This document shows, piece after piece, positions 40,464-57,521 of a DNA stretch of 64,000 nt. The notes beneath the pieces are model-generated. The model saw only the letters and a list, made by a program, of their open reading frames with translations. It did not search any database and was not told the origin of the DNA. The stretch is taken from positions 1-64,000 of the forward strand of contig NZ_VDMB01000007.1 in the NCBI RefSeq assembly GCF_006175995.1. Direction: 5' to 3'. This DNA comes from Desulfobotulus mexicanus (GTDB lineage Bacteria > Desulfobacterota > Desulfobacteria > Desulfobacterales > ASO4-4). How positions within the stretch are numbered: position 1 is the first letter of the stretch; the number at the start of each line of letters is the position of its first letter. Position numbers and translations under genes: made by a program.

Positions 40464-40471
40464 ATTGTCTG

Positions 40472-40815
40472 ATCTTTAGTAATTATTCAGTCATTAATTT
40501 CAAAAACCTGACTCCATAAAAAGACAATCGGGCTGTTTGCGAGTGACATTGCAATCGTTTCGGATCAGAGCTTTGAAGGCCTGTGCGAAAGAAGCGGCAA
40601 ACTGTCTGAGCCGCCACAAAGGCAGCGTGCTTAAGCCTGCCATGGTAATAAAAAAGCTTATCCTGCCTGTGGCGGGGAGTTTTTGCCGCTTCCGCACAGG
40701 ACAAGAAGCTCCCGAATAAGATTGCGTCACGAACAAATAGCCCGGTTGTCTATGCTCCTGATTTATGGTACTCCATTTGCCAAAGAAAAATTGTGCTGAA
40801 CAATTACAATCTTTA
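40472..40815 (+). mobile_element. IS66-type MITE copy 1, with target duplication
   Basis: A non-autonomous element of about 330 bp (40479-40808). The left end is GTAATTATTCAG and the right end CTGAACAATTAC, matching inverted repeats (11 of 12). ATCTTTA flanks both sides (40472-40478 and 40809-40815). GTAA-starting ends and 8-bp duplications are characteristic of IS66-family elements. The interior (40522-40751) is one long imperfect palindrome beginning AGACAATCGGGCTGTTTG and ending in its near reverse complement. No transposase is encoded. It lies between ackA and rsmI and fills most of that gap. Confidence 0.8.
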
Positions 40816-50364: not shown

Positions 50365-51102
50365 ATGGAAATTTCCCTTGAAAAAGCAGCTGAACTTCTT
50401 AAAAAAAGTCGAAATACTGTAGCGCTGACCGGCGCAGGCATCTCAGTTGAAAGCGGTATTCCCCCTTTCAGAGGAAAGGGGGGGCTCTGGGAAACCATGG
50501 ATCCCATGGAATTTGCCCATATCAGGGCATTCCGGAATAATCCTGAAAAAGTATGGGATCTTTTGCTGCGGACCATGAAGGATGTTCTGGAAAAAGCCCG
50601 TCCCAACCCCGCCCACCATGCCCTTGCAGATATGGAAAAAACCGGAAAACTTGAAGCCATCATCACCCAGAATATCGACGGGCTGCATCAGGCTGCGGGC
50701 AACAAAAAAGTCATTGAATTCCACGGAAGCTTTGCACGCATCATCTGCACCGACTGCCACAGAAGCCTTCCCATTCAGGAGCTTTTTCTGGAAGAACTCC
50801 CCCCTTTGTGTACCTGTGGAGGAATACTGCGACCAGACTGTGTATTCTTCGGGGAAAACATCCCGGAAGATGCCCTGTATACAGCACAGGAATACAGCAT
50901 AAGCTGTGATCTCATGCTGGTAATCGGCACATCCGCAGAGGTCTGGCCTGCGGCGGATCTGCCAAGGATGGCAAAAAACAGAAGCGCACTGATTCTGGAA
51001 ATAAACCCGGAACCCACATCACTGACCCCGATATCCGACGGGCTTCTCAGGGGCCGGGCAGGAGAGCTTCTTCCGCAGCTTGTAGCAAGGGTACAGGGTT
51101 AA
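50365..51102 (+). CDS. cobB: NAD-dependent protein deacylase (sirtuin)
   Basis: A 245-residue sirtuin that removes acyl groups from lysines using NAD+. NAD binding reads TGAGISVESGIPPFRG, the active-site region TQNIDGLHQAAG and EFHGS, and a zinc site is formed by CTDCHR and CTCGGILRPDC. Start 50365 has AAGGAG eight bases before it and is preferred over the GTG 24 bases upstream. In an organism with Pta/AckA, acetyl-phosphate-driven lysine acetylation makes a deacetylase plausible (inference). Confidence 0.9.
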   Translation: MEISLEKAAELLKKSRNTVALTGAGISVESGIPPFRGKGGLWETMDPMEFAHIRAFRNNPEKVWDLLLRTMKDVLEKARPNPAHHALADMEKTGKLEAIITQNIDGLHQAAGNKKVIEFHGSFARIICTDCHRSLPIQELFLEELPPLCTCGGILRPDCVFFGENIPEDALYTAQEYSISCDLMLVIGTSAEVWPAADLPRMAKNRSALILEINPEPTSLTPISDGLLRGRAGELLPQLVARVQG

Positions 51103-51108
51103 AAAATT

Positions 51109-51134
51109 GTTCTGAATAATTACTTATTCAGAAC
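51109..51134. repeat. Perfect 11-bp inverted repeat after cobB
   Basis: GTTCTGAATAA and TTATTCAGAAC pair around TTAC. It begins six bases after the cobB stop codon, and its arms resemble the terminal sequence of the adjacent MITE, so it may derive from an element end that also acts as a transcription terminator. A T-run exists only on the minus strand. Confidence 0.6.
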
Positions 51135-51478
51135 AGTTTATTCCGAACTGCCAATGCTGTAGTTGCATCAGCTTCGTAATGCTGCAAGACTCTGTGGCTA
51201 TTTGCAAGTGACATTGCAATCGTTTCGGATCAGAGCTTTACAGGCCTGTGCTAAAGAAGCGGCAAACTGTCTGAGCCGCCACAAAGGCAGCGTACCAAGG
51301 CCTGCTATGGTAATCAAAAAGCTTATCCTGCCTGTGGCGGGGAGTTTTTGCCGCTTCCGCACAGGGCAAGAAGCTCCCGAATAAGATTGCGTCACGGGCA
51401 AATAGCCTGGGGCCTGTGCATCTGTCTTGCAGGTATGGTACCTGGAAAGCTTTTCTGAACAGTTACCTGAATAATTAC
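51124..51478 (+). mobile_element. IS66-type MITE copy 2 with altered ends
   Basis: The palindromic core (about 51196-51407) closely matches copies 1 and 3, starting with the same segment that contains GTGACATTGCAATCG and ending GATTGCGTCAC. The right side carries two end-like sequences in tandem, CTGAACAGTTAC (51455-51466) and CTGAATAATTAC (51467-51478). The left side has an altered end, TTATTCAG, directly beside an end in the opposite orientation. No target duplication could be matched, so this copy seems rearranged. It lies between cobB and the HEAT-receiver gene; the exact left boundary is uncertain. Confidence 0.65.
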
Positions 51479-57179: not shown

Positions 57180-57521
57180 AAAAAAACGTAATTATTCAGC
57201 ACATTTTTTATGCAAGATTATTCATTAATTTCAAAGCACTGGTTCCAGCAAAAGACAATCGGGCTGTTTGTGAGTGACATTGCAATCGTTTCGGATCAGA
57301 GCTTTGCAGGCCTGTGCGAAAGAAGCGGCAAACTGTCTGAGCCGCCACAAAGGCAGCGTGCTTAAGCCTGCTATGGAAATCAAAAAGCTTATCCTGCCTG
57401 TGGCGGGGAGTTTTTGCCGCTTCCGTACAGGCCAAGAAGCTCCCGAATAAGATTGCGTCACGAACAAATGGTCCGGTTGTCTATGCACCTAATTAATTGT
57501 GCTGAACAGTTACAAAAAAAC
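57180..57521 (+). mobile_element. IS66-type MITE copy 3, with target duplication
   Basis: An element of about 326 bp (57188-57513). Its left end GTAATTATTCAGCACA and right end CTGAACAGTTAC form imperfect inverted repeats. AAAAAAAC flanks both ends (57180-57187 and 57514-57521), an exact 8-bp duplication, although its low complexity weakens the weight of this match. The palindromic interior (57253-57482) matches copy 1 closely, and the sequence outside the palindrome is also shared (CATTAATTTCAAA and TTGTGCTGAACA). It lies between rdgB and the nitroreductase gene. Confidence 0.8.

Follow-up and report, generated by a model that had tools for sequence, protein, structure and literature searches.

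A long palindrome in Desulfobotulus mexicanus is very probably the body of a non-autonomous IS66-type MITE

The imperfect palindrome at 40522-40751 of the window (the whole 64,000-nucleotide stretch of Desulfobotulus mexicanus DNA analysed here) is, with high probability, the body of a non-autonomous MITE of the ISBst12/IS66 type. Copies were counted as places carrying the core seed with ≤3/23 mismatches. There are about 98 such places in the genome of D. mexicanus, all of which were retrieved with their flanks, and the same threshold gives about 169 in D. alkaliphilus ASO4-4 (G001) and 14 in a further congener (G002). The family is limited to Desulfobotulus—these three genomes are positive, and 387 other genomes of the class contain no copies. 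Carriage by phages or viruses is rejected, since phages and viral contigs gave no match to the MITE, and a single Acidobacteriaceae match to a 20-mer fits chance.

Three copies, all on the + strand, are found in the window; their neighbouring genes were named by Pfam. Copy 1 (40479-40807) belongs to subfamily A and lies between the convergent genes ackA (Acetate_kinase) and an rsmI-type methylase gene (TP_methylase). Its target-site duplication reads GATCTTTA on the left (40471-40478, the same position as in D. alkaliphilus) and AATCTTTA on the right (40808-40815), a match at 7 of 8 positions. Of its left terminal inverted repeat (40479-40490, + strand) only GTAATTATTCAG is left, the remainder having gone in a 22-bp deletion; the right terminal inverted repeat is TGTGCTGAACAATTAC (40792-40807, - strand). 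Between them lies a conserved core, GTGACATTGCAATCG ... GATTGCGTCAC (40543-40730, + strand), with low diversity between copies. Copy 2 (51120-51466) is of subfamily B, has a Sir2 gene on one side and a HEAT/response-regulator gene on the other, and is flanked by a perfect duplication (CTGAATAA, 8/8). Copy 3 (57188-57513) is again of subfamily A, has a 26-bp deletion in its right arm, and lies between nitroreductase and Ham1/RdgB genes within the duplication AAAAAAAC (8/8). On the left side of copy 2 (51100-51125) a second end-like sequence, TGTTCTGAATAATTAC, abuts the element directly, as if one copy had inserted beside or into the end of another.

The family consensus is about 347 bp long with 16-bp terminal inverted repeats, GTAAYTRTTCAGCACA and its complement TGTGCTGAAYARTTAC, and its two halves are roughly complementary. 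Both terminal repeats are present in 78 of the 98 copies in D. mexicanus, whose lengths cluster at 346-353 bp; further length classes fall at 326 bp, at 177-179 bp (an inner deletion), and at 411-421 bp (a nested palindromic insert of 70-72 bp). This insert, TCCGGCACTCAAG...CTTGAGTGCCGGA, is a second palindromic repeat nested in many MITE copies at differing positions—its sites include L062:659, L064:327 and 534, L066:2231, L069:578, L073:392, L079:752, and L094:618. The loci of D. mexicanus hold 16 of these repeats, and the window holds no intact one.

The fold itself is strong. The segment 40480-40800, around the inner hairpin part (40522-40751, + strand), has a predicted RNA minimum free energy of -131.9 kcal/mol (z -8.7); dinucleotide shuffles give -84.8 ± 5.4, and none of the 100 folds as well. 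The long imperfect palindrome first noticed in the preliminary description is thus real and far beyond chance; the four arm pairs named there all occur in the sequence and all pair in the predicted fold, around a centre at CCATGGTAATAAAAAAGC with arms of about 100 nt, as claimed. A gapless repeat finder misses the palindrome because of bulges in the arms. The palindrome is not confined to the interior of the element, where the preliminary description placed it: the family consensus forms a single hairpin that takes in both terminal repeats (-172 kcal/mol over 347-348 nt, with about 127 pairs). Copy 1 seems to be palindromic only inside because its left outer arm has been cut short by some 22 bp, as judged against the D. 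alkaliphilus copy at the same site. The hairpin is most of the body of the MITE, and the earlier proposal that it is a cargo is not supported. Nor is there support for calling it unusual in a small mobile element; bacterial MITEs that are palindromic and give long stem-loop transcripts are already known as a class (PMC2229807). The wider picture of a small mobile element whose transcript could fold into one long hairpin, in enough copies to allow testing, was sound.

Across two species, 91 of 152 copies have an 8-bp target duplication in which 7 or 8 positions agree; in a control that set the left flank of one locus against the right flank of another, 2 did so. Perfect duplications number 55 at length 8 versus 1-3 at other lengths, and the duplicated sites are AT-rich (74%, compared with 57% in the flanks). 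Comparison with D. alkaliphilus and with G002 shows insertions held in common as well as sites that lack the element in one of the species. GTAA ends together with 8-bp duplications point to IS66. Within the same order, intact 1.7-kb PF03050 elements end in GTAACTATTCAGC or one-base variants of it and have perfect 8-bp duplications (L178, L180, and L182; ATAAAAAC, GGATTTTT, and AAAACGCC); the ISBst12-type transposase of L182 is a 471-aa protein. ISDge4, of the ISBst12 group, combines the ends GTGACTACTCAGCA/GTAACTGCTCAGCA with an 8-bp repeat (PMC12898284). Judged by sequence likeness, the MITE ends are of the ISBst12 type (IS66).

The D. mexicanus genome gave no PF03050 match. It does contain a decayed fragment of an ISBst12-type transposase (L373, G000:C2:120716-120916; 46% identity, interrupted by a stop), which may be what remains of the enzyme behind the spread of the MITE family. 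The one IS66 of D. alkaliphilus is an intact single-gene element (L057, G001:C66); its ends (GTAACTTCTCAATAAGTG; GTAACTTCTCAATAAGTGTAGGCAT) are unlike those of the MITE, and no intact autonomous element with the exact MITE ends was found in the genus. Because a parent with the same ends is missing from both genome and genus, our claim is one of IS66-type ends, not of descent from a known copy. Derivation of the core from IS66 relatives was considered and rejected, as no match rose above chance.

The copies fall into subfamilies A and B, which differ in their outer arms and have the core in common. Distance from the consensus is about 5% in the core, 17-21% in the outer arms, and 12% at the ends. 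A divergent core version, GTAAAGAATCGCCAACTG...CAAGTTTTGGCGATTC, occurs at L066:413-761 (- strand), L118, and L244, with several stem bases altered on both arms. Orthologous copies have diverged by 3.5% in the core and 3.4% in the outer arms; their flanks have diverged by 8.3%, against the 3.5% of the copies. With a core less variable than the arms and orthologues less diverged than their flanks, pure neutral decay is an incomplete account of the family. The suggestion that the palindrome could be the relic of an inverted duplication lies close to these data, but the even spread of divergence that went with it does not—variation is far lower in the core than in the outer arms.

One explanation for this pattern, compatible with the MITE reading, is that gene conversion between copies keeps the core uniform and that entire elements are now and then inverted or exchanged at their site, which would leave shared sites with a reversed or a different copy; we regard it as a real but somewhat doubtful possibility. 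It draws first on the distances between copies, which are nearly uncorrelated between core and outer arms (r = 0.17) and closely correlated between the left and right outer arms (r = 0.81). It draws also on the sites shared with D. alkaliphilus, whose genome matches the window in synteny, with DNA identity of 83-90%. When 88 D. alkaliphilus copies were taken against those of D. mexicanus, 18 sites proved common to both species, with the same orientation at 10 and the opposite orientation at 8. Several of the opposite-orientation sites (for example L141/L213 and that of window copy 3) keep the same 8-bp duplication on both sides. Four of the opposite pairs, L066_2136, L073, L141, and W51 (window copy 2), are mutually nearest in their arms or overall, and each is apparently the same copy inverted in place; W51 has less simple junctions, displaced by about 13 bases. 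Orthologous arms often enclose cores that are not each other's best match and that match other copies better—the cores rank 25 and 10 for copy 1, and 22 and 20 for L094. That orthologous copies are less diverged than their flanks, with cores closer to other copies, suggests exchange between copies.

Several observations count against flipping and exchange. The A and B arms are unmixed on the two sides, bar one unclear copy, and the core is never flipped relative to the arms (156 scored copies consistent, 1 unclear); a core flipped by recombination between the arms is rejected on the latter ground. Both genomes are draft assemblies that break in the repeats, and a core exceeding the read length may have been placed in the wrong copy. 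Additionally, W57 (window copy 3), L140, and L084 may represent independent insertions into the same site. At the site of copy 3 (57188-57513) the D. alkaliphilus copy (L190, G001:C9, about 123383-123728) occupies the same 8-bp site in the opposite orientation and is of subfamily B; at L140, likewise, the other species has a copy of a different kind. We therefore offer only tentatively that this hairpin transposon flips whole in place, with about one third of the insertions that are clearly shared lying reversed, their target site unaltered, between species about 10% apart, and that its 190-bp core is kept near-uniform by exchange between copies. It is these inversions and the uniformity of the core that merit further attention.

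A much less probable alternative, and in our judgement an unlikely one, is that the hairpin is a functional RNA—an mRNA-stability or RNase III element, or a small RNA—whose pairing is under selection while it rides on a mobile element. The very strong fold (z -8.7) speaks for it, as do the more distant G002 copies, which still fold (z -5.3 to -11.1), and the core version at L066:413-761, in which stem bases have changed on both arms. Per copy, the fold of the + strand is also more stable than that of the - strand by 14.3 ± 1.2 kcal/mol. RNAalifold gives energies of -78 for the + strand versus -41 for the - strand; this advantage is not proof, because few arm mismatches in the subfamily consensuses underlie it (G.T versus A.C, 8:2 in A and 2:0 in B). 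It would fit a past RNA read from one strand, though it could be ancestral chance.

Selection for pairing, raised in the preliminary description, was addressed with the substitutions in the aligned copies, and these weigh against it. Within subfamilies and over the whole element, private transitions at Watson-Crick pairs keep the pair (as G.U) in 40 cases and break it (as A.C) in 40. Frequent transitions at such pairs are kept and broken in a ratio of 35:25 (p = 0.25), and distinct changes among core transitions in one of 34 kept to 26 broken. Core cells changed on a single side break the pair 388 times and keep it 225 times. The check for compensatory changes proposed earlier covered 55 copies, 72 pairs, and 500 shuffles, with 98.5% of cells paired in the 55 aligned copies. 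Cells changed on both sides are in excess, 39 versus 11.3 ± 2.6, with 0 of 500 shuffles reaching 39, which speaks for the RNA reading, but these changes are confined to 5 of the 72 pairs and mostly to the same 10-12 subfamily-A copies (the A/B split), so that the number of pairs changed on both sides stays at the level of the shuffles (5 versus 4.5 ± 0.8). Such changes can also be produced by repair of one arm from the other. Copies have no orientation bias towards co-directional neighbouring genes (33 versus 31), and Rfam gave no match to the element, its only match in the window being a tRNA.

The 40:40 ratio is the neutral expectation; with no orientation bias and with equal divergence of core and arms in orthologous copies, no selection on the hairpin is visible in inserted copies. 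An RNA cargo under selection is unsupported by the pair counts with shuffles, by the kept and broken changes, and by the context of strand and neighbouring genes. The more stable + strand fold and the more frequent G.T arm mismatches of subfamily A leave room for weak past selection in copies that were still moving. With more than 100 aligned copies the family provides a direct test, which indicates that nothing keeps the palindrome folded as RNA once a copy has inserted.

A small protein encoded in the core (GTG...TAA, 58 codons) can be dismissed on the substitution pattern: the frame is open in 76 of 179 copies, but the rest carry frameshifts and stops, codon position 2 shows more distinct changes than the other two, and the synonymous fraction (0.271) equals that expected without selection (0.270), leaving the MITE with no coding capacity and no gene of its own.

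For the preferred reading, a non-autonomous ISBst12/IS66-type MITE, a plausible course of events can be outlined. Its ends, its duplications, its copy number, its restriction to the genus, and the lack of coding and, in single copies, of selection for pairing are observed; which enzyme moved it and how the palindrome arose are inferred. The copies would have been spread in trans by a transposase of ISBst12 type working on the MITE ends, and each copy decays once inserted. A transcript reading through a copy would fold into the hairpin and, by analogy, might be cut by RNase III or act as a barrier.

Among known elements, the ISBst12 group of IS66 resembles the MITE in its terminal repeats (GTAACTATTCAGC in the relatives of the order; GTAACTGCTCAGCA in ISDge4, PMC12898284) and in its 8-bp duplication; however, ISBst12 elements are about 1.7 kb long with a transposase, whereas the MITE is about 347 bp long without one, and its internal sequence is unrelated. 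The Correia/NEMIS elements of Neisseria are likewise small and numerous, with terminal repeats and a long stem-loop transcript, and a passage in PMC10969869, citing Elbeyioglu 2017, reports that Correia elements invert. They differ in their TA termini and their length of about 107-155 bp; in addition, RNase III processing and promoters have been shown for the Neisseria elements. ERIC and YPAL of enterobacteria are also intergenic, with one long stem-loop over the entire element and tens to hundreds of copies (PMC2267715, PMC10969869), but they are 127-169 bp long with other ends, and the RNA-level effects shown in Yersinia are unsupported for the MITE by its substitution pattern. The Chunjie MITE of Geobacter uraniireducens, compared here by description only, is similarly a MITE of an anaerobic metal- and sulphur-cycling bacterium, 235 bp long and variable in size (PMC10969869). 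Sites that are shared, empty, or inverted across the Desulfobotulus species are useful for studying the survival and inversion of long palindromes in the chromosomes of bacteria. The Desulfobotulus element is best read as working like the palindromic MITEs Correia, ERIC, and YPAL (PMC2229807, PMC2267715), but with ends of the IS66 type, and it adds to them a large family of IS66-type MITEs that is palindromic over its full length and confined to Desulfobotulus.
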